From: Diphasiastrum complanatum
Taxonomy: Eukaryota; Streptophyta; Lycopodiopsida; Lycopodiales; Lycopodiaceae
Direction of reading: 5' to 3'
DNA: 64,000 bases
Assembly (NCBI GenBank): GCA_029204225.1
Contig: CM055113.1
Coordinates: 10,316,364 to 10,380,363 of the forward strand
The notes beneath the pieces are model-generated. The model ran no database searches. It saw nothing but the letters and a program-made list of their open reading frames with translations, and had not been told where the DNA came from. The position numbers were made by a program, and so were the translations under genes. Below, one piece after another: positions 9,164-60,017 of this stretch (position 1 is its first letter; every line of letters starts with the position of its first letter).

Positions 9164-10065
9164 TCAGCTATCATGGTCTTCGTTGTTGCTGTTGTAAGCC
9201 ATTAACAAGTGTGTATCTTGCTCCAATTCTGTCGTGTTAGAGGAGTCTGGCTGCTGCTGTTGTTGCTTCTTTGTCTCGTTGTAGATGCGGATGCGACACT
9301 CCTTGATGTCATGATTGGCTCTCTTGCAATATCTGCAGAAAAACTTCTTGCGTGATCCACCATGCTCACCTTGAGTGTGAGGCTTCTGCTGTTGCTGCTG
9401 CACTTGATTCTTGCCCTTGGAATAGACTTTCTTCTTGGTGTACAGGACCATGGATTTGTCTTTGATGGACAGGCTGCTGGTGTTTCTCCGTATTTCTTCT
9501 TGAAGAAGATGACCGATCACCTTTTGAAGAGTGAGTCGGGTTGTGTGGAAATCATCTCCACAAAGTGTTCATACGACTTTGGAAGAGAAGAAAACAAGGT
9601 CATAACAGCATCATCATGTTGAATAGCACATCCTACAGCTGATAACTGATCCATTAAAGATTTGAAGCTGTTGATGTGAAAAGTGATGGTAGTAGAATCA
9701 GACATGCTAAGAGTAAAGAACTTCCTTCTAAGATGTAATCTAGTGGTTACATCATGAGTCTCATAGAGATTTGATAACAAATCTAATGCATCCTTAGAGG
9801 TTTTGCATGTGGTAACATGGGATGTTTGGGAGTCGGCCAGATTGAGTGTGAAACATGCTAAGGCCTTCTGATCTTTGATCTTCCATGCCTTTGCTTGATC
9901 ACCATCTTCTGGTTTCAGGTCAGCACCTTCTACTATATCCCGAAGATCTCTATCGATCAACATCATCCAGAGTTTTAACTTCCAAATGTATAAGTTAGAA
10001 CCATTGAAATTGTCAATGATTCTAGCCTCGTGGGATGATGATGAAGAGTTACCAATATGAGACAT
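9164..10065 (-). pseudogene. Copia retrotransposon gag (element 2)
   Basis: A 182-codon open frame (10065-9517) starts MSHIGNSSSSSHEARI and contains the copia gag signature FNGSNLYIWKLKLWMMLID, then the UBN2-like domain (LLSNLYETHDVTTRLHLRRK, SFKSLMDQLSAVG, LFSSLPKSYEHFVEMI). A frame change near 9520 leads into 9520-9164, which is Gln-rich with a CCHC knuckle (CRYCKRANHDIKEC). It lies about 50 bp inside a tRNA-Met primer-binding site, so the start is well placed. This is the best preserved gag of the window, but the element is truncated after the protease. Confidence 0.88.
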
Positions 10066-10118
10066 GTTAACAGTAATACAAATGGAACAAACTTAATCTC
10101 TCGGTTTATTTGAGCTAC

Positions 10119-12735: not shown

Positions 12736-13680
12736 ATGGATGACCACCTTGATGAGTTACGAGCATTGACAGACGGAGAGGAGCAGGTTCAAGAATATGG
12801 CTCCCGCATACATCGAGATGGCGCCAGATCCAAGTCGAGAAAGAAAGAGCATATGCACTCCACGGTGGTGCTGCCCCAAGAAGAGATTGTGCCCCTTCTA
12901 AACCTACACCAAGAGACGAACCCATACCATAGGTGCAACAAGACCTCTTTGAAGTGAAGATGCGTCAATACTTATCAAGTGAAATGACGGCTATGCTTAG
13001 TAAGGTGAAGAGGGACAAAGAAATAGAAAGGAAAGAATGGCAAGCATCCCTGCAAGCCATGAACCACAGTCAATTCGACCTTGCTAGAGAAATGAGAGAC
13101 GAGCTAACACAACTTAAAGCCAGTTTTGAAGAGCTGGAGGCAACAAGAGAGAATGCAGGCCTTCTACGGGCCATCTGTGCTTTCACTTTAGCAGTCTTCT
13201 TCAGGCGAAACACAGACGACCCAAAGAAGACTGCTAAAGTGAAAGCACCACCTACTTTCAAAGGAGAGCATGACATTCGAATTGTGGAAAACTGGTTGTT
13301 TCACATAGACCATTACTTCTGTTTGATGAACACTCCTGAAGAAGAAAGAGCGGACTTGGCATTAGCATATTTTGAAGGCTACACCACAAACTGGTACCGG
13401 GTGGCAGGGATGCAGTTTCAAACATGGGATATGTTCAAAACTGTGTTACGAGAGGAGTTCATACCTAAGGATTCACACTTGAGATTGAGGGCAAAATAAT
13501 CAGGACTCAAGCAGAAAGGTTCATTGCAAGAGTACCTAAATAAATTCAGACAGAGTATATGGATTATTGAAGATATGTCCGAGGCTGACAAGACACACTA
13601 TCTCTTGTCTGGAATGCAGTCTTGGACTTGACGAGCAATAGACAACTACATGTCCAATGACTTTAACTCAATCAGACGAA
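12736..13680 (+). pseudogene. Gypsy retrotransposon gag (element 1)
   Basis: A start at 12736 (MDDHLDELRALTDGEEQ) gives a charged N-terminus. After a frame change near 12930 the frame to 13499 contains a coiled region and the Retrotrans_gag core: PPTFKGEHDIRIVENWLFHI, then YFEGYTTNWYRV and FIPKDSHLRLRAK. A TAA follows, but the same frame continues with LKQKGSLQEYLNKFRQS, the usual gag continuation, up to another stop. It is decayed by at least one frameshift and two stops. A 25-bp perfect hairpin lies inside the frame at 13177-13248. Confidence 0.85.
13177..13248. repeat. Perfect 25-bp inverted repeat within gag
   Basis: The left arm 13177-13201 and right arm 13224-13248 are exact reverse complements (GTGCTTTCACTTTAGCAGTC... 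against ...GACTGCTAAAGTGAAAGCAC) with a 22-base loop. The gag frame stays open across it, so AFTLAVFF and KKTAKVKA are encoded by the two arms. The right arm precedes the conserved PPTFKG, so the left arm is likely the secondary copy. Confidence 0.9.
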
Positions 13681-13684
13681 TGAA

Positions 13685-14680
13685 ATGGTTTGTGATTATG
13701 AGACCACATTGGCACCAACTGCTCCCTCAACCTTAACAAGAATATTTAGTGGATCCAGACCGAGTCTGAGCTTTGTTTCAAGAGGACACTCAACTTTAAA
13801 TGGCAACCAAGCCTCGAGTAGCATGAACAGATTTCCAGCAAAAGCAGGCTTTGGCAACCAAAGCAGCAGTGGAGGGAACACTTTTCAGAGAAGGAACAAC
13901 ATTGGTCCTTCAGCTAGTCACAACGATAGCTCACCAATGGTGGGCAGTTCCATGCATTGCTTTAACTGTCAACAACAAGGTCACTCTTGGAGGTCATGTC
14001 CCAAGCCATTGAACAAAAAAATCATGGCGGCGACAGAGGTACTTGATAAGATGGAAAGAGAGGCGTTTGATCAAGAAGATGGTGAACATGATGACGAAGA
14101 AGACCCAGAAATGGATTTGATGGAATTTGACTTGATTGCCTTAAAACAAATAGGGGTAGTTGTGGCTTATTGTGAACATATCATGGTGACTCCTGCAAGA
14201 GGATCAAAGTTATTGTACCTGAAAGGCAGTATCCAAGACAAGATTATTCACTTCATGATAGACCTGGGAGCATCACATAACTACTTGTCAGAAAGCCTGG
14301 CGGGGGAATTGGGCATTCAATGTGAAGAAAATGTGACTCCTATTTTTGTGGAGACCGCAAAAGGTACAATGACAACCTGTAGATAGGCAACCAACTTGCC
14401 AATCTCGCTGGGCACCTGGAAAAATCGATAAACGTTCACAATCTTGAAGATGGATGCTTTCGATGCTATCTTGGGACTAAGCTGGTTTAACGAACATGTG
14501 GTGGCCTTCTTGGCAAAAGGGATTAACCTTGTGTTATTATATAATGCCAGAAGACCTTGCATCGTCAGAGCTATGCCAAAGGAGCAATTAGAAAGGAACG
14601 ACACAACTGAACCTGAGCCAGCCATCCCTCCCAATCTCATTCACCTCTTCAACGAAGGACAGCCAACAGAGACAAACTAG
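13685..14680 (+). pseudogene. Gypsy zinc knuckle and aspartic protease remnant (element 1)
   Basis: The frame to 14386 contains the CCHC knuckle CFNCQQQGHSWRSC, an acidic linker and the protease motif FMIDLGASHNYLSE, where active-site DSGAS has become DLGAS. A stop and frame change follow, then 14444-14680 resumes with DAFDAILGLSWFNEH, the conserved second half of gypsy proteases (ILGMDWL type). Reverse transcriptase, RNase H and integrase should follow but are absent. Only about 480 bp separates this from the element's polypurine tract, so most of pol was deleted. Confidence 0.85.
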
Positions 14681-18499: not shown

Positions 18500-18690
18500 T
18501 TATCCTTATAATACAATTTGTTTTGCTGCATGCATGTGGTTTGATCTAAAAGGAATTCTAGCCTTCCTTTCAAAGATGCAGCTATGACAGACAAGGAGAT
18601 CGACCTTACCAGAAGGATAGTCGAGATCAAGAACCATGGACTGTCTGTCGGGTAGCGCAATAGCAATCTCTAAAATGACTCTAAGAAGTG
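18500..18690 (-). pseudogene. Copia pre-integrase / integrase zinc-region fragment
   Basis: On the minus strand a short frame contains DYPSGKVDLLVCHSCIFERK followed by ARIPFRSNHMHAAKQ. This matches the region where copia proteins have a C-x2-C motif, the GKQHRLPFP-like stretch and the start of the integrase core. It is the distal half of the HHCC zinc finger. It is abutted by a fragment of the GA-microsatellite repeat shared with 58465-58634. Confidence 0.65.
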
Positions 18691-18724
18691 AGCTAGAATG
18701 CTCAGAAGTGTTCAAGCTCGCAGG

Positions 18725-18806
<82 letters not shown>

Positions 18807-18832
18807 AACTATTCAAATGCTTGATCGTAAGA
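18650..18832. repeat. GA microsatellite with copia-derived flanks, copy 1
   Basis: A 77-bp (GA)n tract at 18728-18804 is flanked by GCGCAATAGCAATCTCTAAA and GTTCAAGCTCGCAGGCTT on the left and CTAACTATTCAAATGCTT on the right. The same flanks surround the (GA)n tract at 58546-58613, so the microsatellite is carried as part of a dispersed element and did not arise independently. Confidence 0.9.
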
Positions 18833-21290: not shown

Positions 21291-21298
21291 TGATTAGT

Positions 21299-21775
21299 TG
21301 TTTTAGAGAATGTTATTGCGCCACTCTTATCAGCATTGCGCTTAATTCAGACTTTCATTTTAGCCGCTCAGAGATAGCATAGAGTATGTGGCTTCGATCT
21401 GCAACTTATTGTACTCATTTTCTTCTGTTACGTTTTCATACTGAATCAATACTATCCTTCATTGCGTTCAGCTTTCATCTCAGAATGTATGCGTTTCTGT
21501 ATTTCTTCGCGACTAATTCGCGAACAATTCAAGACTAATTATTTGTCTGATAATTTTTTATGCTTAATTGTTTGGCTACATAATCACTGTAGTATTGGCG
21601 ATTTCAAAGTTAGTTACTATAAGTTCAAACGTGATTTCTATTACTATTCTTTGTTTAAATTTGATAGGCATAGTCATGCATTGGAAAGATGAAGATAGTT
21701 TATTCCGACATGCACGAAAAGTTTTTTTTCTAGACACGAATTTCTTTTCGAACTAGACCTATCTTCTACACACCA
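21299..21775 (+). repeat. Solo LTR, family X, copy 1
   Basis: A 477-bp block with ends TGTTTTAGAG and ...ACACACCA is the reverse complement of 58023-58495 over its whole length. Shared words include CTGAATCAATACTATCCTTC and ATTGCGTTCAG. It sits inside gypsy element 2, between the RT/RNase H and integrase remnants. The five bases on each side (TTAGT, CTTTT) do not match, so there is no obvious target-site duplication. The ORFs at 21462-21756 are inside the LTR and are not genes. Confidence 0.75.
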
Positions 21776-21789
21776 CTTTTCGACATGGC

Positions 21790-26922: not shown

Positions 26923-27321
26923 ATGGCTGTTAGGAGGGGCGATGCCCCTTCTTCGTCAAATAGGATAACCAAGAGAAGGTCTGGTACATTCAAATACATA
27001 GAAGTTGGCTATGAAGAAGCAAGCAAGAAGCCCACATATATTGCCATGGGAGTGCTTAGTTCCATCGTTTCAAAAAATCCTGATTGCAACCTATCTGATT
27101 CAGCAATAGCAGCAGCAGAGAATTCAGGATGCCCTAAGAGACATCTTACACACCATTGCATGAAGGAACTTGACCTGACTATGTTTTCCTTCTACTGCTG
27201 CTGTGATCAGAGGCTTTTACAACAACATCCATTAGAGAAACTTAGAGCCCAACGAGGGCCTTTGAAAAAGATGTTTTTTTTTTTCTTATTTTTGTTGCCA
27301 TGTGGACCAATTGAACCTTGA
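26923..27321 (+). pseudogene. Unidentified 132-codon open frame
   Basis: An open frame starting MAVRRGDAPSSSNRITKRRS has a basic N-terminus, a middle with GYEEASKKPTYIAMGVLSSI and a Cys-rich part (FYCCCDQR). A phenylalanine run from a T homopolymer and an early stop follow. I recognise no family. Codon texture up to about residue 100 is coding-like. It lies just left of the H3-containing locus, but no link is shown. Confidence 0.25.
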
Positions 27322-27329
27322 AATTGGGG

Positions 27330-27346
27330 TTCTACGTAACGTAGAA
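27330..27346. repeat. 17-bp palindrome
   Basis: TTCTACGTAACGTAGAA has two 8-bp arms around a central A. It lies between the 26.9-kb ORF and the coding-like sequence at 27.6 kb, in AT-rich DNA. Confidence 0.7.
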
Positions 27347-27577
27347 TTTTCCAAATATAAATAAAATAAAAACTTTTAAAATATATTGTTGTTTTGTCGG
27401 GCAGCATGTGGAAATGCTATTGGTTGATGAGGCCTGCCCTTCCGACTCATCACTGCTTGAAGAGATCCAAAAATATTGAAAATGAATATGACAGATGGTT
27501 GAGATGAGAAAATCGATGTACCATTAATGTATATGCATTGTCAAATCATGGTTAACAGGGTTAATCAGAGTTAATTC

Positions 27578-28330
27578 ATGGCGCCAAATAGATCAGTGTT
27601 TCAAATTTACGCCAATACATTTTTTCAAATTCATGCAATCGACTATGTGTTTCTATTCAACGAGAAAGATGATAATGGATTATGGGTGCCAAGAAAATAT
27701 TCAAAAAAACTCGTGGGTTTTGATGCATGCATCATCAAAAGGAGCATTTCGAAAAAGCAAAAGGTCAAAACTATCATTTCGATCTTACTGGAAGGCCAGA
27801 ATTTTGGATTTCAGAACATCATCAGGAGAAAAATCTATTTCTGTAATTCTAGTCCAACATGTATATATGCATTCTTAGATAAATGTGCAAAGATTCAACT
27901 GTCAGAATCACAAAAAAAAACAATTGTGAGTATTGATATTTTTTATACTTAGATTTTTGTCATTCATAAATATCTAATAGTAAATTTGCCAATCTGATCA
28001 ATTTTCTCTTGCAGATTTATATCCATCCAACATAAATGAATGAGAGCCCAGTGGATCTTTAGCAGACGTGTTAGATGTTATTCAAACTGATATTGGACAG
28101 CTGCAATATCGAGGTAGAACTGCAAAAGGTCTAGTTGATAGTGGAATTCTTTTTTATGAATCAATGTACATTCCTGATACAAAAGAAAATTTTGGACAAA
28201 TAGTCTCAATTCCATTACCTAATTTTGAAAGTGATGAATGGATTGCACCAGATGCTACAGTTTCAAAATCATTTCATTGCAAGATATATAATGATGTAAA
28301 AAATTTATTAAAAATGAGCACGGGATAAAA
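27578..28330 (+). pseudogene. Unidentified two-exon coding remnant left of the H3 locus
   Basis: Exon 1 (27578-27925) starts MAPNRSVFQIYANTFFQIHA and contains DYVFLFNEKDDNGLWVPRKY and Lys-rich helices. A consensus 89-bp intron follows (GTGAGT at 27926, TTTTCTCTTGCAG ending 28014). Beyond a stop, the frame from about 28040 gives LADVLDVIQTDIGQLQYRGR, then TAKGLVDSGILFYESMYIPD and a soluble segment to 28328. I do not recognise the protein and see no retroelement motif. Stops in exon 2 mean it is probably dead. It is convergent with the H3 remnant. Confidence 0.4.
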
Positions 28331-28683
28331 AACAGTCAGATTGAGTTGGTTTATTTTCTTGAATATATTTGTGGATTTCTTTTCAAGTGTCAATGTCCAC
28401 AAAACACCAACGATGTTTGTATGCAAAAATTTATCAAATAGTTTATAATCTGAACTTATGGATGAAGTCTGGGACAAAAGATCAGATGGAGAAATAGAAT
28501 TCATAATTAAAATGTCTTCCATGTGCTTCTGTTATCAAATTGAAAAACAAATGTTGAGCTTATGCTTCCATTATCAAAGATGGAAAAAAATAAAGGTTAA
28601 TGGGTCTTCCTAGCTAGTAATTCCCCGGCTCTCATGCTTGGCTCTCAGCTTCTTCTGCTCTCCTCCTTCTGAGACCTCCTCGG

Positions 28684-29415
28684 TCATGGGTGAGAGATAA
28701 CTTGTGTCTTCAGCTTGGCTCGGCATTTGAGGATTCTCTGGGATCCGCTAACAGTAATCAATACTTTTGGTGAAGAAACTTGCCGAGGAGCAAGACGAAT
28801 AACAGGAAGAGGAAGGGGTGATGATTCTCGATCTGAATCAGATTCTGCAGCATCTGACTCAGAGCTCAGGACGATCTGGGGTCTCTTGGCAGAGATAACT
28901 CTAGAAGGAAGGGAAGCAACTGGCCTTCAAGATCCAACTTTCTGAGGGACAGGCTGCTTCCTTTTCCTCCTAGAGATAGTTGGCAAGTTGGCTCTATCCA
29001 GAGGCAGGTCTCTGGAGGTGCTGGCGTTATCAACATGCAGACCGGAAAAACGGTCTCGAAGTCTTCTGAGAATGACAAAATCTTTTGGCATGATGGTGAC
29101 ACGCTTACCATGCACTGCCAAAAGACAAGTATCCTCAAAAAATTGGGACAAAAAATCCTCTACAACACCCTATAAGGCCTGCATGGCTGTCATGGCAAAA
29201 CGAACATTTAGCCCAAGTGACAGAGTGACATTCTTGACAGATCGACTGAAAGGAGCTCTAGGGATCAACAGTTCAGTTGATCTCTGGAGTTTTCTAATCT
29301 CCCTCAGTCATATCTGCTTCCTACCACGTATTCGGTCAATACCAGGGGGAACACAGACATGAGAAGGCTGTACAATGGTTATGGCATAGGCAGTGGATTT
29401 GGTCCTGGCCATCAT
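28684..29415 (-). pseudogene. Divergent histone H3 with long C-terminal extension
   Basis: From ATGATG at 29415-29410 the minus frame gives (M)MARTKSTA, close to the H3 N-terminus ARTKQTA with Lys4 kept. A short tail lacking the ARKS motifs follows, then a histone fold: LREIRKLQRSTELLI (residues 36-50), PFSRSVKN, RFAMTAMQAL, and [19 protein letters not shown] (93-111), the H3 hallmark, ending [10 protein letters not shown]. About half of the fold residues equal canonical H3. Loop 1 has canonical length, unlike most CENH3. The same frame runs on for about 120 residues with SRRKRKQ and the acidic serine patch SSESDAAESDSDRESS, to TGA at 28686-28684. Nonsense codons at 35 (TGA), 81 (TAG) and 162 (TGA) interrupt it; there is no indel. 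The product would be a nucleosomal H3 variant. Confidence 0.88.
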
Positions 29416-29716
29416 TCTCCAAAAAAAAAAAATTAAAAAAAAAGTTTGAACAAAAGAGCAGAGAATGAAACAAAAAAAATTTGCGATCAGAGAGCGCTTG
29501 AGATCGATACCAGAATTGAATATCAGTTTCGAACACAAGATATACACAGAATATTTTCATAAAGGAGATGTGCGCTCGAAAGCGATATTGGAATAACAAC
29601 GGTATCGGTCTCGAGCGCACTGTGAGAAGGTAGACGATTAAGCGATGAAAGGACGTGCTTGAGAGCGATATTGGGAGCAAAAATCGAAAATTCTATGAAA
29701 AAAACTGAAATTTTTT

Positions 29717-29724
29717 TATATATA
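29717..29724 (-). promoter_or_regulatory. TATA box facing the H3 gene
   Basis: The plus strand TTATATATA is a TATA box (TATATATAA) on the minus strand. It lies between the CACGTG cluster and the H3 start, about 300 bp upstream of the H3 ATG. Just before that ATG the minus strand is T-rich and ends in AG, so a 5' untranslated intron is possible. Confidence 0.6.
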
Positions 29725-29735
29725 CGAAATTCTCG

Positions 29736-29972
29736 CACGTGTGAGAAAACGACCGATGACACGTGTTGTCATCTAACTGATCCACGTGGAATGTTCTTAT
29801 TGACAATGATGACTCAATTATGAGGCCACGTGGATTGGCCATGTGCATGAATCACCTTTCGACGCATGTCATTCTCGCACGTGACAGATGTAAGATCAAT
29901 CATTGTCTATACAATGGATTCTTTTGAACCAATCATACATCAACACGTGTCATTTTGTAACTCCTCCACGTG
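29736..29972. promoter_or_regulatory. Cluster of seven CACGTG (G-box) sites, bidirectional promoter core
   Basis: CACGTG occurs at 29736, 29762, 29783, 29827, 29878, 29944 and 29967. G-boxes are known binding sites of plant bZIP and bHLH factors. The cluster lies exactly between two outward-facing TATA boxes (29717-29724 minus, 29985-29993 plus), so it probably served both genes. At equal base frequencies about 0.06 such hexamers would be expected in this length. Confidence 0.8.
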
Positions 29973-29984
29973 CGAATTTTTTTT

Positions 29985-29993
29985 TATAAATAG
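29985..29993 (+). promoter_or_regulatory. TATA box facing the rightward gene
   Basis: TATAAATAG follows a run of T, 13 bp beyond the last CACGTG. It would start transcription near 30020, upstream of the ATG at 30306. Confidence 0.65.
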
Positions 29994-30305
29994 ATCAATT
30001 TTGGCTCGGATTTTCACGCAAATTTTTGATTTCTTGGCCGAAAATCGATTCCAAGCGCGTCCTTTGCACTGATTACCCTCCGTTGGCTTACTTGCGCCTG
30101 GAACCGATACTGCCTTGTCTGGTATCGCATTCAAGCGCGTCTTACATCTCATTTTTTTTTTCTGCTCTTTGTTCACGCGCTGGGGTCTGATACCGTAATT
30201 TTTAATAACTCTTTCGAGTGCACATTACCTTGAGGTTCTTGTCAAACCTGCAGTTTGCGCATGAGAGCGATATTTGAAATTTTACATCTGTAGTTTTGTT
30301 TTAAA

Positions 30306-31864
30306 ATGTCTACTTTTGATTCTAGTCTGCTCTTTTTTTTCCATGAATTTGGTATTAGTGATAATTTGGAGTATTTCAAATCTTCTTTTTCTCCTTTTCT
30401 TTTTTTTCTTCCTTCTATTACTGAGGGTCCTGGTGTGGAGGCATTTTCTGAGATTTATCTCAGATTTAAATCTCTACTCAGTACTCCGTTATTTAGATAT
30501 CAGAATAAGGACATGATTCATTATCGGGACTTGGTGGCACTCGACAAGCATAGCTATAAAGCTAAGCTTGACAAAATGTTCACTAAGTTACATAATGATT
30601 TCAAGTCTGTAGATGAGTGCCCAATTCACAATAAAAAATGTAGATTTGTTGATTTTCAATCTGCATTTGTTTTTTTTCCTTTTGTTAAATATTTTTGACA
30701 ATTTGAAAACTGGCCCTTCTACTTCTGAAGTTCTTCTTTCAGTGGTACAAAGTCTGAATAGTCAAAAATTGTAGATATAGATACCTTTTTTTTATTGATA
30801 CGAGCGTTAATTTAGATGATGTTCAGATTTTGATCTTGGTCGAAATAGGACATCGTTTATAGGCCCTAGAACACCCACTGCCCTTTCTCCTTCTGATAAA
30901 TCTTTGACTACTTTGCCTACTTATAATGTTGATAATTTTTTTTTTTTTTGACAATATCGGATATATCGGATCTTTTTTATTTCACTGAAGCTGAGACTAT
31001 TTGCATTTTGAGCAAAGAGCTTGATGAATTTTTTGATATAATTGATTTTGATGCTGATGATCTTCTCCTTGGTGTTGACGATTTTCCTCCTGATAAGTTT
31101 TATTTAGAGAAAGATTGCTTGAAAATGGCTGTGGAGGAAATGCGCAACAAAGAAGATGATCTACCTTCTGAGGAGGAGTTTCTCAGAATCCAAAGTCAAC
31201 TTGGTTTTCCACAGCCAACTGTCTATTCACCAACAATATTGACATCGAAAGGTGGACATAATATTGATGGAGAGATAGTAATCAGGGAAGACAAAGCTGA
31301 ATCCGTAAGTTTTTGTATCTTATTTTGTACTAGTAGATTCATTGTGTCAGATTATATACTGGAGCTTACTTTTTTTTTTTTTTTTCATTTTAGAAAACAA
31401 TTTTCCTTGATGATTTCGCAATTCGTCGAGGATAGAGATCTTTTGCTGGAGAATTTTCAAGAGATCATGCACTGGGTCACTATCTGAAGTTCTTCAAGAA
31501 TAATGAGATAAGTGTTGCCCATTCAAAGTTTCATCAACATGGTGAGACTGTGATTATGGCAATCAAGACACTGTTTCATTTTTTTGGAAGACAGAATTTT
31601 AATAAGGTGCATAAAATAATTTTTGTAATGAAAAGTATTGCGATTAAAATTTTAGAATATGGACTAGTGAATTCCATGCTCAGATCATCTCATTTTGTAT
31701 TGTATGCTGCTTACGTTGATCTGAGTAAGTATGAAAACTATGAGCTGTTGGATCCATGCGAAAGAAGAAAATTGTTGCATGATTCTAAGTTAACTTTCAT
31801 TAGAGAAAGTATCAGAAGCAGAGTAGATACTGCTGAATTGTACTTTGTAAATGTTTTCATTTAA
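30306..31864 (+). pseudogene. Unidentified acidic-protein gene divergent from H3
   Basis: The first open frame (30306-30698) starts MSTFDSSLLFFFHEFGISDN and contains HNDFKSVDECPIHNKKC. After frame changes near 30700 and 30940 come GPRTPTALSPSDKSLTTLP and a strongly acidic part (ELDEFFDIIDFDADDLLLGV, EEMRNKEDDLPSEEEF). A good 89-bp intron follows (GTAAGT at 31305, T-rich tract, CATTTTAG ending 31393). The next exon gives KTIFLDDFAIRRG, a stop, then EFSRDHALGHYLKFFKNNEI and MAIKTLFHFFGRQNFNK. The rest to 31864 is coding-like in another frame. No family is recognised. It shares the bidirectional promoter with the H3 gene, so the two were probably co-expressed. Decayed. Confidence 0.45.
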
Positions 31865-31869
31865 TATAC

Positions 31870-33230
31870 AAAATTTTATTGTGTGTCTATTGCCTATTGG
31901 CTTGTATAAATTCGCATGCTTTTTGAAATTTGTTATAATCCGTCGATTTTGTATTATGACGAATTTGGATTCTTCTGTAAAAGCATTGGAAAAGTTGTAG
32001 TATACAGTTGTTTTTTGTGCTAGTCCCGCCATATTGTGTACTTTTATGAAATACCGCTCTTGCTTGCCAATGAGATTTTTCCATTTCTTGTGATGACCAT
32101 ATGCTAAGACTTCCACTATTTCTTGCAAAAATGTCGAATGATCCGTAATATGTGCTGCATGTCATAAAAACATAATCTAAATCAGTACCAAAAGTATCTA
32201 ATTTAATTGCACATATTTGTCTATAGTAGTGTAACATTGAAATCTTACCATATAATGTGTTATATGATCAACACCCCATACACTTCGAACTGCAACACAA
32301 ATTCACTGGTTGTTTTCTGTATCATTTGTACATCAGTATTTGAAAATTTATTTTTTCTCAAGTATTTCACCATGTTGTCTAATTTTTTTGAAACTTCTAC
32401 TTTGTGTATACGAGTAGAACCTTCTTCTTCGAAATCTTGAGTTGCTACAATAATTTCTTTCCAAAGCATTGGAGGATCCAAAGCTCGAAGATTTTTATCA
32501 AATTATTTTGGCAACCAATCCAAGATTCAATAGTATTCACAGCAGTATAATAAGCAAATCAATAGAAAGTTGAAATGAATAAACAATAAAACTAGTGATT
32601 ATAGATGAATAAAAAAGTTCAAGCAATATTTAATACCAAATTAGCTATAACTTACTTGAATGCATGTATTTGTCTTTTTCTATGACCTCCTCTGGATGAT
32701 AGATCACATATATCCTTGGTTACTAGTCTTTTTCTTTTGTTGCTTCGAACCTTTCTGTTGACAAGAGACAAATATGAGATCATATCCTTAACAAGAGACA
32801 AATATGAGATCTTGAGCATCTCATTTTCATCCAAACAAGTTTTCAACTTTGTAGATCACTCCTTTGATATTTAACTTGATTTATCTTCCAAATAATGTAT
32901 TCTTTGCATTGAATGTGCATTCCCATAGAGCATCAAATTCTCACAGTAACCCAAAAGGCCATTTTTGCCATGACACATATACATTATTAACTGACTCACC
33001 GAATGAAATTCTGAATGTTGCAATAAACATGGATCAATACTTGATGACCATAAATCTACATGCTTTAGTTTTTCCTCTCTGTATCGGACCATATCAGAAG
33101 TTGTCAATTTGAGTTGCTTTGAATTTTTTGTCCTGAGCGGAGCATATTCTGTGACAGATCTAGATGAAGATGATAAAGCTTTTTCATCAGTACAATAGTA
33201 TAGTAACAAACAACACAATGACAATAACAA
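31870..33230 (-). pseudogene. Unidentified multi-exon coding remnant, minus strand
   Basis: Coding-like pieces follow each other on the minus strand. 33120-32871 carries TSDMVRYREEKLKHVDLWSS and SQLIMYMCHGKNGLLGYCEN. 32846-32652 carries Lys/Arg-rich SNKRKRLVTKD. 32481-32260 carries DNMVKYLRKNKFSNTDVQMI and VLQFEVYGV. 32128-31890 carries EIVEVLAYGHHKKWKNLIGK and YFIKVHNMAGLAQ. Stops and AT-rich gaps separate them, as expected of exons or decay. I recognise no domain. It converges on the rightward gene above and could be a third gene of the same locus. A 21-bp duplication at 32761/32792 repeats the residues ISYLSLV. Confidence 0.35.
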
Positions 33231-33235
33231 AGCTC

Positions 33236-33325
33236 GAGATGGCGCTAAATACTTGTTCGACCATGTTGGAGATAGAGATGGCGCTAAAAACTTGTTTGAC
33301 CCTGGAGATAGAGACGTGTAGACTT
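33236..33325. repeat. Tandem duplication of about 47 bp
   Basis: GAGATGGCGCTAAATACTTG and GAGATGGCGCTAAAAACTTG, each followed by TT(C/T)GACC and GGAGATAGAG, are repeated head to tail. On the minus strand this encodes a repeated KQVFSAIS/EQVFSAIS. Confidence 0.8.
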
Positions 33326-33475
33326 TGTTTCAGAGATGTCACTCCTAATTCAAATTTTTGAGTGTTCCCAAATTTTGTGAGGGAATATTTCATCATTTTG
33401 AAAATTATATTTTAACTATGCTTAAGCACCAGTGAAGTTTGTTGGAGAGAGGGAGATGAACGAGTTGAGAAAAGG

Positions 33476-33960
33476 TGTTGTATGTTAGAAACGAAAAATA
33501 AGCTCAAAGAGGTAAGACGAACACGAACGAGAAACGAACTCAAACAGAAAATATTCGTGCGCAACGGAATGAGCTATACGACTCTCTCTGTAAGCATGAC
33601 TACGCCTATCAGAACGAAAAAATGGTAGTGATGGGAATCATAGTCGTTCTTGATTACGTAGCCAAACTTTAATAAATGAATGAAGTTCTAGAAGAATGGT
33701 TTGTCGCGAATAGCAAGACAAACTATTTGTTGCGAATGATTCGCGAAGAGCTAGACAGTGCTCAACTGATAATTAGTCGCGAATGATTGGCGAAAGACAA
33801 GACTAAATGTTAGTCGTCTATTACCAAAAAGAATAACTAGAAAGATCAGACAGAATGAATGATAAGCATAATAATATTAACATAGATCTGAACGCAGAAC
33901 AAAGAACTGTATCAGATTAAGTATATTATGTATACATGTCAATAATGCGGTGGAACACAA
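33476..33960. repeat. LTR family X, copy 3 (diverged)
   Basis: It starts TGTTGTATGTTAG and shares GCATGACTACGCCTATCA, GTAGTGATGG/ATAGTGATAG, CTACGTAGCCAAAC and CGAA..GAATGAATGATA-type words in order with 58023-58400. It is in the same orientation as that copy and inverted relative to 21299-21775. The right end is indistinct. Confidence 0.55.
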
Positions 33961-34740
33961 GACAATAATGGACAAAACCGCGTGCCCTACGAAGCTTATA
34001 CAATCTGTAAAGGAATAAAACCTTATTGCCGACAATCAAGAATCAATGCGCAAGGCATCTACTTCGTCTCATTCATCAACTCATCAACTCATTCACTCAT
34101 TAACCTGAATACACAAATGGTATCCAGTATATATACATTATATTACAGGTGTGCAGATGTGGAAAGTACAGAGTGGATGTGCTGTTTGTAAGAGATTGTG
34201 GGTGGCTGTAGTCGTTGTCCAATCTGTTAGCGCAGCTGCATGGGGTGAGCGTGAAAAGGGTCGACGTCAGCAGTGCTGAAGTGATCGTTGGTGATGATAA
34301 TGCAAAAAGTGCGTCACTCTTACGAGTAGCCTTAGGATTAGATTTATAGGGTGCCTTTGCTTTTAGGGCACCTTTGGCATTCTGTAAGATAGTGTCCCCT
34401 TTTCGCCTGTCACATAACGTGTGTAAAAACACAGTGTCGCGATTCTTTAGTCTTTCTTCGTCTGTGCGAATTTGCATGTAAATATGCAGATTGCGCGACA
34501 ACGTTAGTAAATATGCAGCATGAGTGGAGGCAGATTAGAATGGGATTTAAGGAGAGTAGAGGGAATAAATCCAACAAAGTTTGATGTGACTAAACTAAGG
34601 TGCATTCATTTACATGAAAAGTAGTGTGGGCAGATGTGTAGAGAAGTTAGAAAATGATATTATAACTACTTTATAGTTATTTTTCTCTATCCTACATGGC
34701 ATTTCTTATAGGGCCCTCTTTGGGACCATATTTTTTCTAA
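33961..34740. other. Non-coding, possibly LTR-derived
   Basis: It contains TATATATAC at 34129-34137 and ACAGTGTCGCGATT near 34430, related to the CGACA motif blocks. A short inverted repeat around 34352-34371 pairs GGGTGCC with GGCACC. No gene is supported. Confidence 0.35.
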
Positions 34741-35073
34741 TGAGCAGAATCATCAACCAGGAGGAGCATGATGAGCAGTGGTCGCCTACACTTTGTTCAT
34801 CACGCACTTGCCTCCTACTATTCTCTCTCTGCTCGATCCATATTCACTAAACCAAGTTCAATCACTATCATATATGTTCTAAACCTGAACTCCAATCACA
34901 TTCAAGTTTCATCTCCTCCTCGCCTGTCCTTCTCGAGCCATGTCTTCTTTGCTCCAATAGAAATGGTGGCGTCATGGAATCGGTAATAGGGAGGGCAACG
35001 AGGTTGGAAAGAGTGTGATTAGCATTCGAATGATGGGTAGAGGACCGCACACCTTTCGTGGTGGTGTTACAAA

Positions 35074-36123: not shown

Positions 36124-37545
36124 AACACCTCTTGTTCGAAGTTTTGACCATTTTTTACTGAATCCGACCAATTTTTGGCTCAACGGGCAAACTGCGTTTA
36201 GGGTTTCTAGTTCAAACGCACGTCTCGCTGCAAGTACTGAACTATTTGGAGTCCGGTTTAGTCATGTGGGTTTGTCTTGGTGTGCAGCACAGGACGGAAC
36301 AAATGGTCTGAAAAACGGACTCCATTCGGCAACATTGGACCAATTCTCGAGAATGTTGAAAAGTAATCCATTTAGTGGCATTCCCCCGACAGAAAGGGTG
36401 TTTCCAAACAAATGGCATCAAAATTGAGCTGCAAATAGTCCAGTGGGTTCGTGTCGAGCCCACGAATCTATGGACACCTCCCGTCCAAAGTTTTGATCGT
36501 CTTTTACTGAATCCGACCATTCATGGCTCGATGGGCCTAGAATCCTAGGACTGTGTTTAAGATTTCTGATTTGGACGCATGTTGCACTATGAGTACTGAA
36601 CCGTTTGGAGCCCAATTTAGTCTCGTGGGTTCGTCTTGGTGTGCAGCACAAGATGTAACATACCGTCTAAAAAATGGACTCCGTTCGACGACACTGGACC
36701 AGTTCTTGGGGATGTTGGAAAGTAATCCATTTAGTGGCATTCCCCTCGACAAAAAGGGCGTTTTTGGACAAACGGCATCGGAATTGAGCTGCAAATGGTC
36801 TTGTGGGTTCGTATCAAGCCCACAAACCTGTGGACACCTCCCGTCCAAAGTTCTGACCATTTTTTACTGAACCCGACCAATTCCTGACTCGATGGGCCTA
36901 GAATTCCAAGACTATGTTTAGGGTTTCTAGTTTGGACGCACGTTGCCCTGTGAGTACTGAACCGTTTGGAGCCCGATTTAGTCCCATGGGTTCGTCTTGG
37001 CGTGCAGCACAGGTTGGAACAGACAGTCTACAAAATGGACTCTGTTTGACGACACTGGACCAGTTCTTGGAGATGTTGGAAAGTAGTCCATTTAGTGGCA
37101 ATCCCCCCGACAAAGAGAGTGTTTCTAAACAAATGACGTTGGAATTCAGCTACAAATGATTCTGTGGGTTCGTGTTGAGCCCACAAACCTATGAACACCT
37201 CTCGTCCGAGGTTTTGAATATCTTTGACTGAATCCGATCAATTCCTGGCTCGACGGGCCTGGAATCCCAGAACAATGTTTAGGGTTTCCGGTTCATACGC
37301 ACGTTTCACTGTAAGTACTAAACCGTTTGGAGTCCAGTTTAGTGTTGTCGGTGCGTATCAGCGTGCAACATAGGACGGAACAGACGGTCTGAAAAACGGA
37401 CTTCATTCTGACGACACTGAACCAATTCTCGGAGATGTTGAAAAGTAGTCCATTTAGTGGCATCCCCCCGACAGAAAGGGCGTTTCCGAACAAACGACGT
37501 TGGAATTGAGCTGCAAATGATCCCATGGGTTCGTGTTGAGTAGTA
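36124..37545. repeat. Satellite, period about 360 bp, about four units
   Basis: The anchor GGACACCTCCCGTCCAAAG recurs (with changes) at about 36124, 36471, 36831 and 37191. The anchor TTTGGAGCCC..TTTAGT recurs at 36247, 36605, 36966 and 37327. Unit length is 349 to 361 bp. Units differ by point changes and many ORFs on both strands cross them, none conserved enough to call coding. A fifth partial unit lies apart at 38805-38895. Confidence 0.92.
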
Positions 37546-53621: not shown

Positions 53622-55241
53622 TCAGCTGGAAATCTGCACCCATACTGCAGGACTTGGAATTCCCTGGTTAACGATAAAGAGCATGTAGTAAGCAGACGGA
53701 GCTACAACATTGTTAGGCGGGGCTGTGGCTGTAACTTGATATAAGCCATTCCCTGCAGAGCTCACCTGTTGAGACACTGAGAGCTTAAGGAGCCGTAAAC
53801 CTTGTGAAAATGAGTGAGTGGTGTAGGGAGAGCTAATCAGGTTCACCTCTACGTTGCCTTGTGGTTCGTTTGGAATGGAGAAGCTGATAGTGAATACGGA
53901 ATTGTAAGTAATTGGAGACGTGGAAGAGCCTAAAACATTAGGGCGGAGGTTGGAGTTTGCGGAGCTGAGATAGTCAGGAGAGAAGGCTTCGACCCGTAAT
54001 TCTGTTGGAAAATCGCCACTGAACGTGTAGAACTGGTGAGTGTTACTGCCAGCCACGAGCACACGAGCATCTGGAAGTAAATTGGCGGTGGAGTGGTATA
54101 CTCTAGGAATTGTAGTGGCTGTCAATGTGCTGAATCTCTGTCCGGCAGCTGCTGTCGACAGATACAAGACAGGACTCAGAGTTGGATTCTTCGCATTTCC
54201 CCAACCAGAGCAACCATTCTGGGCTCCGTTGATGATTAGAACATCTCCATTGGGGAGAAGCACCATGTCTCCCATGGTGCGTGCTGTTGGCATTGTCTCC
54301 ATCGCCCACGTTGCACTGGTATCAGTTGCAGTTATACGTCCACAGGTCTGCGATGCCAGTGGAAAAGTTGAAGGATTTTGGAAGGCGCCGAATTGTGCAC
54401 CTCCACAGACGACAATTTCAGCTGTTGAGAACCCATCACTAGCCATCAGTGGCAGCATCACTGAAGATCCAGCTGAAGGGTAGTTCCTGGGCTCACCAGG
54501 AATCGCTGGATAAGTTCTCACGACCGTGTTGGTCAAGTAGTTGTACAGGATAGAATCTCTGTTGGCGAATATAAAGAGGTTTCCATCAGGAATGAGGTGA
54601 ACAAAGGGGTAGTAGTTGTCATTTTGAGCATCATTAGTTTGCTGCAAAAATGGTAGATTCGTAGTTCCTTGGCCATTTGCAGGAATAAACTCCGTGGTGA
54701 AAACATCTCGTCCGCCAACAATTATCTGTCTGCTACCGTCGGGTAGGATCTGATTAGAAGCATACCAGCGACCCTGTTGCAGGCCTTGATCTGTGGCTTC
54801 AACCCAGTCACAGGTGCCATCACTTGGGCAAGGCGTAAAATACCTGACTTTCCTATTGCCATCGAAGTCGCCTCCTGTTTGCACAAGCATGCCGTTCGCA
54901 AAGAACTGGCCGGATGAGCACCAGGTGTCTGTTGCAATATAGAGAGGCCTAATGCTATTGGATCCTGGGGTGAAGAGGACAGAGTGGGCCGTGCAGTCAT
55001 GAGTACTAGTGAGATCTGAGGGGTCATCACGGCATCGTCCGTTGGGAAGGTTGATCTGAGAAGGTCCAATGTCAGTTCTATCCAGAAAGATCACAGTTCC
55101 ATAGTGTGTAACAGCAGTGTGCATTGAAGCTATGCCAGCGTTCGTAACGAGCAGCTCCCAGCTACCCTGACCATGAACAAGTCCAATGAAGCTAGAGGCC
55201 CATACCACAAATGAGATCCCGAAGTACTTCATCTGAAACAT
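53622..55241 (-). CDS. Glyoxal oxidase-like copper radical oxidase, intact, intronless
   Basis: A single open frame of 539 codons. Residues 1-24 (MFQMKYFGISFVVWASSFIG...) form a secretion signal ending before QGSW; Met4 is an alternative start that keeps it. The remainder has the glyoxal oxidase N-terminal beta-propeller followed by a C-terminal galactose-oxidase-like immunoglobulin-type domain. By comparison with galactose and fungal glyoxal oxidases the copper/radical residues are present: Cys108 (TDTWCSSGQFF), Tyr160 (QGRWYASNQILPDG), Tyr382-His383 (IPRVYHSTANLLPD) and His476 (SPYTTHSF). It should oxidise aldehydes or primary alcohols to carbonyl products plus hydrogen peroxide, in the cell wall or apoplast; the substrate cannot be told. 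Length is typical of plant members. TATA and AATAAA flank it. It is the only intact gene seen here. Confidence 0.93.
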   Translation of the reverse strand: MFQMKYFGISFVVWASSFIGLVHGQGSWELLVTNAGIASMHTAVTHYGTVIFLDRTDIGPSQINLPNGRCRDDPSDLTSTHDCTAHSVLFTPGSNSIRPLYIATDTWCSSGQFFANGMLVQTGGDFDGNRKVRYFTPCPSDGTCDWVEATDQGLQQGRWYASNQILPDGSRQIIVGGRDVFTTEFIPANGQGTTNLPFLQQTNDAQNDNYYPFVHLIPDGNLFIFANRDSILYNYLTNTVVRTYPAIPGEPRNYPSAGSSVMLPLMASDGFSTAEIVVCGGAQFGAFQNPSTFPLASQTCGRITATDTSATWAMETMPTARTMGDMVLLPNGDVLIINGAQNGCSGWGNAKNPTLSPVLYLSTAAAGQRFSTLTATTIPRVYHSTANLLPDARVLVAGSNTHQFYTFSGDFPTELRVEAFSPDYLSSANSNLRPNVLGSSTSPITYNSVFTISFSIPNEPQGNVEVNLISSPYTTHSFSQGLRLLKLSVSQQVSSAGNGLYQVTATAPPNNVVAPSAYYMLFIVNQGIPSPAVWVQISS

Positions 55242-55338
55242 GATCAGCTATTAGTAGATGAGTTTATGGGGATCAGCATTTGGACGACTAACCAGAAAGT
55301 GAAGAGGAAAAGCATGCGTATCCAGACTTACTATGCAG

Positions 55339-57846: not shown

Positions 57847-58022
57847 CTTTAATAACTAGGAAGAGCAGCCCACCAAGCCTTTGAGTAGTCCACCAATGTC
57901 TCCAAAAGCCTCCAATGTGCCTCTCCTCTAATGCTCCTAAGATCCTTCCAAAAGTAGACGAACAAGATGGCCTCAAGAATTTACCACCCAACCATAGCTA
58001 GATCCAAGTTTCTGTCAGAAAG

Positions 58023-58495
58023 TGATGTACAGAAGATAGGTCTAGCTCAAAAAAAAATGAATGAAAATAATTCGTGTGTCTAGAAAGAAAACTTTTCGTG
58101 CATGGCGGAATAAACTATCTTCATCTTTCCAATGCATGACTACGCCTATCAATTTCAAACAAGACAATAGTGATAGAAATCATGTTTGAACTTATAGTGA
58201 CTAACTTTGAAATCGCCAGTACTACAGTGACTACGTAGCCAAACAATTAAGCATCGAAAATTATCACACAAATAATTAATCGTGAAGAAATACAAAAATG
58301 CATACATTCTGAGACGAAAAACTGAACGCAATGAAGGATAGTATTGATTCAGTATGAAAACATAACAGAAGTAAATGAGTACAATAAGTTGTAGATCGAA
58401 GTCGCGTACTCTATGCTATCTCTGAGCGGTTAAAATGAAAGTCTGAATTAAGCGCAATGCTGATAAGCAGTGGCGCAATAGCAATCTCTAAAACA
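58023..58495. repeat. LTR family X, copy 2
   Basis: A 473-bp block with ends TGATGTACAG and TCTAAAACA; the reverse complement of the solo LTR at 21299-21775. It lies at the 3' side of the minus-strand copia remnant (58621-59259), separated by the GA tract, so it could be that element's 3' LTR. Confidence 0.7.
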
Positions 58496-58542
58496 ACTCT
58501 AAGAAGTGAGCTAGAATGCTCAGGAGTGTTCAAGCTCGCAGG

Positions 58543-58617
<75 letters not shown>

Positions 58618-58634
58618 TAACTATTCAAATGCTT
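58496..58634. repeat. GA microsatellite with copia-derived flanks, copy 2
   Basis: (GA)n at 58546-58613 with the same flanks as the tract at 18728-18804 (AAGAAGTGAGCTAGAATGCT, GTTCAAGCTCGCAGGCTT, CTAACTATTCAAATGCTT). Here it lies between LTR X and the copia coding remnant. Confidence 0.9.
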
Positions 58635-59259
58635 TTGATAATTCTGATTTAGGAGAATCTGATAGGTCGGCTACATGGGGACTGCCCTTTCCTTTGAGGT
58701 CTTGAAACTGATCTTCGATGGATATGACATCCCACCTAGTGAATATCTTCGACTCGATGAGATTGAACAGCTTGTAGGCTTGATCTGAGGTAGTGTATCT
58801 GATAAAAACACACTTGATACTCTGGAAGTCGAGCTTCTTCCTAAGATCACGAGGAATCTGTTCCTGGCCGAGTGCAAGGATCTTATCACTCCTGTCAATA
58901 ATTCTGCATTGATCAGATTCGAATTCTACCTTATGACCTAAATTTGTAATTCTACTTATTGATAGCAGATTTGTAGAGAGTTTAGTTACATGTAAGACTT
59001 TTGATAGTAATTTGAATTGATCATGCTGGAATCTCAATCTTACAGTACCTTCACCTTCAATAGTGTGAGATGCTAGTCTTGCCTTCTTCTTGTATCTAAC
59101 CAATTCTTGTCCTCCAAGAGGCTCATCCTCTTCTTCTAGGAAAATATCAAAGAGGTCTTGGAGCATTATGAGTGACTCCATCCTCACTTTCCATATTGAG
59201 TAGTTTGTAGAATTTAATCTCTCAATAGATCCAAGAAGGAATCCACCAATGGTTCTCAT
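58621..59259 (-). pseudogene. Internally deleted copia gag-protease-integrase, one open frame
   Basis: The 212-codon frame is a mosaic in the normal copia order. Residues 1-62 are a gag N-terminus (IERLNSTNYSIWKVRMESLI). From residue 63 it is the protease end to pre-integrase (ASHTIEGEGTVRLRF, KVLHVTKLSTNLLSISRI, KVEFESDQCRIID). From about 136 it is the integrase C-terminal part (RKKLDFQSIKCVFIRYTTSD, AYKLFNLIESKIFTRWDVIS). Gag core, zinc knuckle, the protease active site and the whole integrase core are missing, yet the frame stays open through both joints. RT and RNase H are absent. Probably a deletion derivative, not an enzyme. Confidence 0.85.
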
Positions 59260-60017
59260 ATCTCTAATGAGTTGTACTAATGATGTAATTGTTGGCCCTC
59301 ACTACGCTCTTTTCCAAAATTTGCCTCACTAGCAACTCACTTGATGCTCACAAAGACACAAGTGGCAAGATTCCCTTGATCTTGATTCACGAGAACTTTT
59401 TAAGAAGGATTCTACAAAACAATGCTCAAGAAAATTGGTTTTGATTTGAACCTAGAAACTCACAAAGGTTTCACTTGTCTTTATTACCTCAAATATGACT
59501 TCTAGCCCTCTATTTGGACTTCTAGCCACAGTTCTTACACTCCCTCACAAAGATGAAATGAAGATTAGATGAGAATCTATCAAAGGCTTATCAAATCAAG
59601 TCAATTTTATCTATTTTTGGACAAGAAATGGCTCAAAACTTGTACTTTCCTCTTGATGGTTCTCCAAGACCTATAAAACACATTTAAAGGGATTTAAATC
59701 AGCCTCAATTAATTAGATTTAATGACAGAAAGTCAAATCCAATCAATGGCATACTAACATTGATGCTTTCTCATAGATCTAGCATCCAAAAACTCATCAA
59801 GATCTATTCCTATAAATTTTTATGGATCTTAGCAGAAATGGAAATTATTTTTGGGTGCAGACATGTGAACAATACGGAATTAGGCCTTGATCAACTTTAA
59901 TCCACAAATTTTCGTCCGATCATCTGATTTCTACTTGGCCCTCCAATACTAGCTTTTTATCTCAAAAACTTGCTATTTTGGAATTGTACACAAGATAATG
60001 ATTAACTCTTGTACCTC
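59260..60017 (-). other. Leader between copia gag and primer-binding site
   Basis: About 760 bp without ORFs, lying between the gag start and the primer-binding site on the minus strand. It is longer than the leaders of most copia elements, which may mean that gag and the LTR at 60030 come from different elements. Confidence 0.4.

Follow-up and report, generated by a model that had tools for sequence, protein, structure and literature searches.

The window (the whole 64-kb stretch of Diphasiastrum complanatum DNA that was analysed, C22:10316364-10380363) contains one copy of a repeated element that carries a gene for a divergent histone H3 with a long C-terminal extension, referred to here as the H3 fusion. 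Read in the direction of this gene, the element holds five parts in order: gene C; gene B, which points the other way; a mirrored promoter; the H3 fusion; and gene D, which like gene B lies on the other strand. The features in the window are as follows.

27230..34742, minus strand: whole element copy, H3-oriented, retaining both termini but with an internal deletion and an interruption (7513 bp)
27230..27250, minus strand: H3-oriented right end, ...GGGCTCTAAGTTTCTCTAATG, terminal inverted repeat (TIR) partner of the left end (copy comparison)
27560..28605, plus strand: exon-like pieces of gene D, intron-like signals at 27927-28014; 27636-28605 common to other copies
28684..29415, minus strand: broken H3-fusion gene, the ORF of the first-pass annotation, with short tail, H3 fold and beginning of the C-terminal extension
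29416..30305, no strand: mirrored divergent promoter, H3 one way and gene B the other, with inverted arms, CACGTG, TATA-like sites and CpG
29561..29810, minus strand: H3-side promoter/leader arm, the stretch with significant similarity (BLASTN)
29899..30154, plus strand: gene B-side promoter/leader arm, the stretch with significant similarity (BLASTN)
30306..31864, plus strand: broken gene B, an orphan, probably spliced, start codon inferred (relative P0033)
31793..33444, minus strand: remains of multi-exon gene C, a candidate transposase, ~1.4 kb missing compared with L023
33445..34576, no strand: extra ~1.1 kb inside the window copy, missing there in L023, L027, L031, L035, L037 and L040
34711..34742, minus strand: H3-oriented left end (CATTAG...), two differences from the 32-mer of other copies (copy comparison)

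Elsewhere in the window, a 541-residue glyoxal oxidase ORF, intact-looking in one frame (53625-55247, minus), is the clearest host gene, and fragments of copia gag, gag/protease and copia-like pol lie at 9520-10092 (minus), 13667-14383 (plus) and 58624-59298 (minus). A tandem array (361-bp unit, 3.7 copies, 81% matches) occupies 36196-37540, just outside the element. Two pairs of dispersed repeats, one inverted and 85% identical (21296-21785 and 58013-58498), the other 94% identical (18652-18822 and 58470-58634), are unrelated to the H3 element, and no long repeats surround the H3 gene within the window. Neither Rfam, at gathering scores, nor a tRNA search found anything in the window.

The first-pass annotation had read a minus-frame histone H3 at this locus, and this identification was confirmed. 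The frame from 29415 contains the MMARTKSTA start, the H3 alphaN/alpha1 segment LREIRKLQRSTELLI, KRVTIMPKD, and a basic followed by an acidic-serine stretch, all as it had described. The Pfam Histone profile scored 83.6 bits against a cut-off of 26.4 (E 1.8e-23) and 82.9 bits in the open copy L023, which places the histone fold well above threshold, and the best H3 chain match was plant H3.1 8kcb_F (E 1.7e-20, over residues 34-121). The Pfam profile CENP-T_C also scored just above its cut-off for the window H3. In a predicted model of the read-through protein, helices were placed at residues 29-44 (alphaN), 52-65 (alpha1), 74-103 (alpha2) and 109-123 (alpha3), and no structure was predicted beyond alpha3 at residue 123. 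Nearly all of the 50 best solved-structure matches of this model were nucleosomal H3.

The frame had further been taken as open, with an extension of about 120 residues. The extension is genuine, as the genome comparison below indicates, but its true length is greater and the frame is broken in this copy. In-frame stops occur at 29310-29308, 29172-29170 and 28929-28927 ahead of the terminal TGA at 28686-28684, and the second of them splits the alpha2 helix between conserved residues, which rules out an intron as the explanation. Nucleotide homology with other copies stops at ~28754 (inside residue 220) and resumes at 28605; therefore the last ~22 codons of the window ORF are sequence beyond the deletion and not original. 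Compared with L023, ~1.9 kb is missing from the window copy, the deletion beginning inside the extension. With three internal stops and a deletion in the H3 frame, the window copy of the H3 fusion is a dead pseudogene. Among the six frames of the window extension DNA (122 codons, 29052-28687), the H3 frame fits the coding profile best, by a margin of 10.0 with the glyoxal oxidase profile (reached by 3 of 326 tiles) and of 8.0 with the H3 core profile (reached by 19 of 326).

When the window's own genome (1,744,706,496 bases, 5176 contigs) was searched in six frames, 8539 first-look candidates emerged, from which the 150 places most similar to the window were scored, a biased set that leaves most candidates unscored. 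All 150, self included, match the H3-fusion query with E at most 1.7e-98. The 149 non-self places are 71-81% identical to the window H3 fusion and their matches extend to residue 214-241 of 243 (214-243 with self), so most of the extension is common to the family, and the concern that it might be absent from homologues is removed. The extension had also been considered as a unique orphan, an idea dropped after these matches at 150 of 150 scored places, and the neighbouring ORFs were no longer regarded as ordinary host genes once copy comparison showed them to be part of the repeat. In the protein database, the extension alone (residues 121-243) had no match at E 10 (74 candidates), and the whole H3 query gave 32 matches covering 33-44% of its length, i.e. 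the core. As for a viral origin, three scans of viral contigs contained no relative of H3, B or C.

Within the match, 27 of the 150 rows are free of stops, and some of these are segmental duplicates. Twenty 10-kb stretches (L021-L040) were read at length, the choice partly favouring copies without stops. The H3-fusion frame runs to its first stop over 369, 369, 372 and 375 residues in L021, L022, L023 and L033, and in the other 16 it stops between 14 and 335 residues. When 48 of the 150 places were read for the H3 ORF, 20 had no stop in residues 1-120 and four were open in one frame to residue 360, two of these four (L003 and L004) being near-identical. The 48 copies together hold 49 stops in residues 1-220, 44 of which are C-to-T and/or G-to-A changes from the commonest sense codon; this spectrum is the pattern of methylated-cytosine decay. 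The listed copies of the element are spread over many contigs. Copies or ends at L007/L008, C9:55.14-55.29 Mb and C4:42.3-42.9 Mb lie in apparent segmental duplications or local clusters.

Comparison of copies gave sharp element ends. The termini are CATTAGAGAAA...TTTCTCTAATG, with the left end reading CATTAGAGAAAATATGGGCCC... and the right end ...GGGCTCTAAGTTTCTCTAATG, and they form a TIR of 11 bp perfect and ~46 bp imperfect (33/46 in L040). End-to-end lengths are 8896 bp in L027, 8521 bp in L040, ~9920 bp in L023 and 7513 bp in the window, where the extra ~1.1 kb at 33445-34576, absent from six other copies, represents an insertion. The left-end 32-mer occurs genome-wide 573 times forward and 573 times reverse at no more than two mismatches, and its reversed control 0 times; because equal forward and reverse counts are odd, we take 573 left ends as a safe floor. 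No target-site duplication was visible at any of the four insertions with both ends seen (window, L027, L040 and L023), the L023 flanks sharing one base (A). Both L027 and L040 are inserted inside coding sequence judged by eye to be copia-like, and their joined flanks give an uninterrupted copia-like frame with neither gap nor repeat, so insertion at these two sites seems neither to duplicate nor to remove bases. The termini CATTAG...CTAATG are of the 5'-CA..TG-3' type. LTR retrotransposon features were not found, the terminal repeats being inverted, not direct, and the pieces searched containing no reverse transcriptase domain. Taken as a family with this structure, the high-copy DNA element is close to certain. 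The bolder option of the first-pass annotation, an H3 gene on an uncharacterised mobile element, is thus borne out, with intact multi-copy homologues sharing both the extension and the neighbours; its mobile-or-variant reading was right about a mobile family but had overlooked the pseudogene state, the real extension length, the element ends and the mirrored promoter.

The sole protein-database relative of gene B is P0033, a D. complanatum hypothetical protein (61% over 69%, E 1.8e-102). Since the match runs on through an intron-like stretch, P0033 seems to be a gene model from another element copy; its predicted fold was uninformative (mean pLDDT 34). No family was found for gene D. A Multicystatin match to joined B/D exons (E 2e-4) was set aside because it spans an artificial join. 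The exons of gene C contain, in order, LKLDESE, GDLKTL, CLYC, HILRH and GMEKSH, a DDE-like motif chain. GDLKTL is present in six of seven copies and CLYC is intact in four of seven, and HILRH and GMEKSH are present in the five copies, of ten matched, whose alignment covers them. The H(3)H and E motifs depend on an exon frame that was inferred and that codon statistics do not tell apart from the overlapping one. Searched in exon pieces, gene C matched nothing in NCBIfam or PDB, and nothing in Pfam above cut-off. From its motif chain, gene C is probably the transposase of the element.

According to PMC12730594, CMCT transposons (EnSpm/CACTA, Mirage, Chapaev, Transib, Plavaka, ESTA and Lanisha) and RAG1 carry C(2)C and H(3-4)H motifs that lie between the second D and the last E. 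The clubmoss element shares the CA...TG termini, and the gene C chain D...GDLKTL...C(2)C...H(3)H...E, as read in the inferred frame, resembles this published layout. CMCT transposons produce 2-5 bp target duplications, whereas none was seen at four of four copies of the clubmoss element, and gene C has no detectable sequence match among them, its last-exon motif frame being an inferred one. The element works like a CMCT transposon but is not filed there, because the duplication differs and no profile or structure matches, though motif order and ends fit. Spy transposons likewise cut and paste without target-site duplications, according to the accessible portion of PMC4482050, and insert within AAATTT; this motif is missing at all four insertion junctions of the clubmoss element, in which no related domain was found.

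The mirrored promoter between the H3 fusion and gene B consists of two inverted arms that are 62% identical over 262 nt (BLASTN, E 6e-16). Over the whole ~410-nt arm slices, 218 of 387 aligned bases are identical (56%), the similarity fading toward the start codons, and the local score is 62, whereas 500 resamples gave no more than 31 and 610 window tiles no more than 26. Of the 15 CACGTG sites in the window, seven fall in the promoter (at most two per 250 bp in 100 shuffles), and each arm has one TATA-like site. CpG observed/expected is 1.47 in the promoter vs 0.58 for the window, and of 632 tiles the top two in this ratio both overlap the promoter; values of at least 1.0 also occur in 16 of 613 tiles outside, up to 1.30. 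In all eight copies examined, out of 20, the promoter ratio is 1.18-1.58 vs 0.30-0.42 in the H3 ORF. This CpG richness could reflect the composition of the promoter's motifs. Of the 20 stretches, 15 have both arms and 18 have one or more. Extra promoter arms lie upstream of H3 in L025, L026, L030 and L036, a pattern that would fit duplication of the promoter module itself. Both leaders contain a degenerate motif resembling TATCGNTTTCAAGCGC (29494, 29572, 30123 and 30206, within 29480-30290), which matches only three other places in the window with no more than four substitutions; it may be a binding site.

Coding constraint was assessed by comparing third-position variation with the mean of the first and second positions over 1000 bootstraps of codons, a test that ignores copy relatedness and has no wrong-frame control. 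In the H3 core, variation was 0.105/0.071/0.125 at positions 1/2/3, with 22 of 1000 bootstraps against. Third positions also vary more in extension residues 221-372 (5/1000 against), at the N-terminus (0/1000) and C-terminus (26/1000) of gene B, and in gene C exons 1, 2, 3 and 3b, where 38, 39, 4 and 7 of 1000 bootstraps were against. Three regions lack a codon-position signal: extension residues 121-220 (575/1000 against), the central part of gene B (117) and the tail (328). A presumed later H3 exon varied least at third positions (0.163/0.149/0.101) so the test gives no support for its coding in that frame. Counted by codon position, shared variants were 21, 12 and 23 in the core and 26, 26 and 26 in residues 121-220. 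The NG86 dN/dS of the core was 0.38 in frame vs 0.38-0.81 in five other readings of the same DNA and is not decisive, since these wrong-frame controls are also below 1.

In canonical H3.1 and H3.3 the core hardly varies and the tail bears K9, K14, K27 and K36. The element H3 differs in each respect: core identity to canonical H3 is 41-45 of 85 in the seven copies compared, the tail is ~33 residues long with position 31 as its only usual lysine besides Lys4, and at position 9, 45 of 48 copies have Ala and one has Lys. Lys4 is kept in 43 of 48 copies and ARTKS of the tail in most. The equivalents of the H3 contact residues H113, K115 and K122 are kept in all 48 copies and that of D123 in 42. CENH3 has a longer loop 1 than H3, whereas loop 1 of the element H3 is of canonical H3 length in the alignments, with no CENH3-type insertion. 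The first-pass description of the protein as having a canonical loop 1, and as neither ordinary H3 nor typical CENH3, agrees with these comparisons.

Several explanations were considered for an H3 gene kept on a transposon. The nearest precedent is found in fungal hAT elements, so H3-carrying DNA transposons are already known. The H3-like (H3L) hAT transposons of Pyrenophora tritici-repentis (PMC3538342) and the H3-carrying hAT of Pseudocercospora fijiensis (PMC6710886) are TIR DNA transposons multiplying an H3-like gene to many copies, as in the clubmoss element, and the hAT-borne H3 copies of P. fijiensis are reported to be all inactivated except the original gene. By analogy with these precedents, a host H3 gene may have been picked up long ago and amplified by the transposon without use. 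The scarcity of open copies (20 of 48 stop-free in residues 1-120, four open to residue 360) and the absence of codon-position signal in residues 121-220 fit such a passenger, yet the core is only about half identical to canonical H3 while several key residues are invariant over 48 copies, the core and far extension show codon-position constraint, Lys9 has become Ala in 45 of 48 copies, and the H3 fusion has a dedicated promoter arm. We consider unused capture unlikely. The clubmoss element further differs from the fungal ones in its plant host, the lack of visible target duplication, the approximately half-identical H3, the long extension and the mirrored divergent promoter, and ten exon pieces searched contained no hAT transposase domain (only Histone and CENP-T_C were above the Pfam cut-off).

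It is improbable that the H3 fusion serves as a DNA-binding or tethering subunit of a transposition complex, using its histone fold for dimerisation and not for nucleosomes. Parts of B, C and the H3 fusion all show codon-position constraint, and the extension combines a basic stretch with a constrained far part, as such a subunit might; the retention of ARTKS in most copies and of the H3-specific contacts argues against it. Descent from a centromeric H3, with the protein helping the element to target or mimic centromeric chromatin, appears similarly improbable. In FastTree, the element H3 groups with P0012 (0.856), near plant CENH3 and nematode sequences, LLIPRAPF at the alpha1 start is common to P0009, P0012, P0020, P0021, P0024 and P0026, several of which we judge to be CENP-A-like, none being so named, and the CENP-T_C score points the same way. 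However, in the tree of the core built with IQ-TREE, using hand-entered CENH3 sequences from outside the lycophytes, the position of the element H3 is weakly supported and long-branched, and long-branch attraction is therefore likely. The loop-1 insertion is also missing, and the listed copies lie on many contigs.

We favour, at about even odds (roughly 0.5), the explanation that the locus is a decayed copy of a high-copy TIR DNA transposon with a divergent H3 fusion that is likely a silencing-resistant histone at the element's own promoter. The anti-silencing role by itself is somewhat less than an even bet, being read from the sequence. The gene C transposase would cut and paste the element, and the mirrored promoter would drive gene B and the H3 fusion at the same time. 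The fusion protein would then pair with H4 and enter nucleosomes on or near the element. Plant transposons are silenced by a loop of K9me and CHG methylation, and because the H3 fusion presumably cannot be K9-methylated, it may break this loop. Nucleosomes containing it would shield the element's promoters, and the C-terminal extension may direct or stabilise it.

Several known systems resemble parts of this proposal. VANDAL elements are plant transposons whose VANC protein is thought to counter methylation; they share with the clubmoss element an own protein proposed to act against silencing, but VANC is not a histone. Fungal transposons with TET/JBP dioxygenases, in the section of PMC12730594 available, carry a DNA-methylation gene thought to aid escape from silencing, a different mechanism from that of a histone. 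The H3 of the dinoflagellate A. monilatum has 167 residues, an extended C-terminus and Met in place of Lys9 (PMC4751559, in part); it is expressed, its extension is short and the same portion of the paper does not report it within a transposon, in contrast to the long, transposon-borne clubmoss fusion. No report of such an H3-fusion plant element was found in the parts of the open-licence literature covered.

At its widest, and only tentatively, the family might be a new lycophyte transposon superfamily that inserts without target duplication, in which K9-unmethylatable nucleosomes would keep the mirrored promoters free of methylation and active while the rest of each copy is silenced by the host. 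The family offers a TIR element without visible target duplication together with a candidate DDE transposase outside known profiles. It also supplies many naturally occurring H3 variants that have nearly all lost Lys9 and mostly keep Lys4 and the core contacts. As a rule, only hosts provide histones; if the proposal is true, a plant transposon keeping and reshaping its own H3 over hundreds of copies would provide a direct test of anti-silencing through nucleosome supply.
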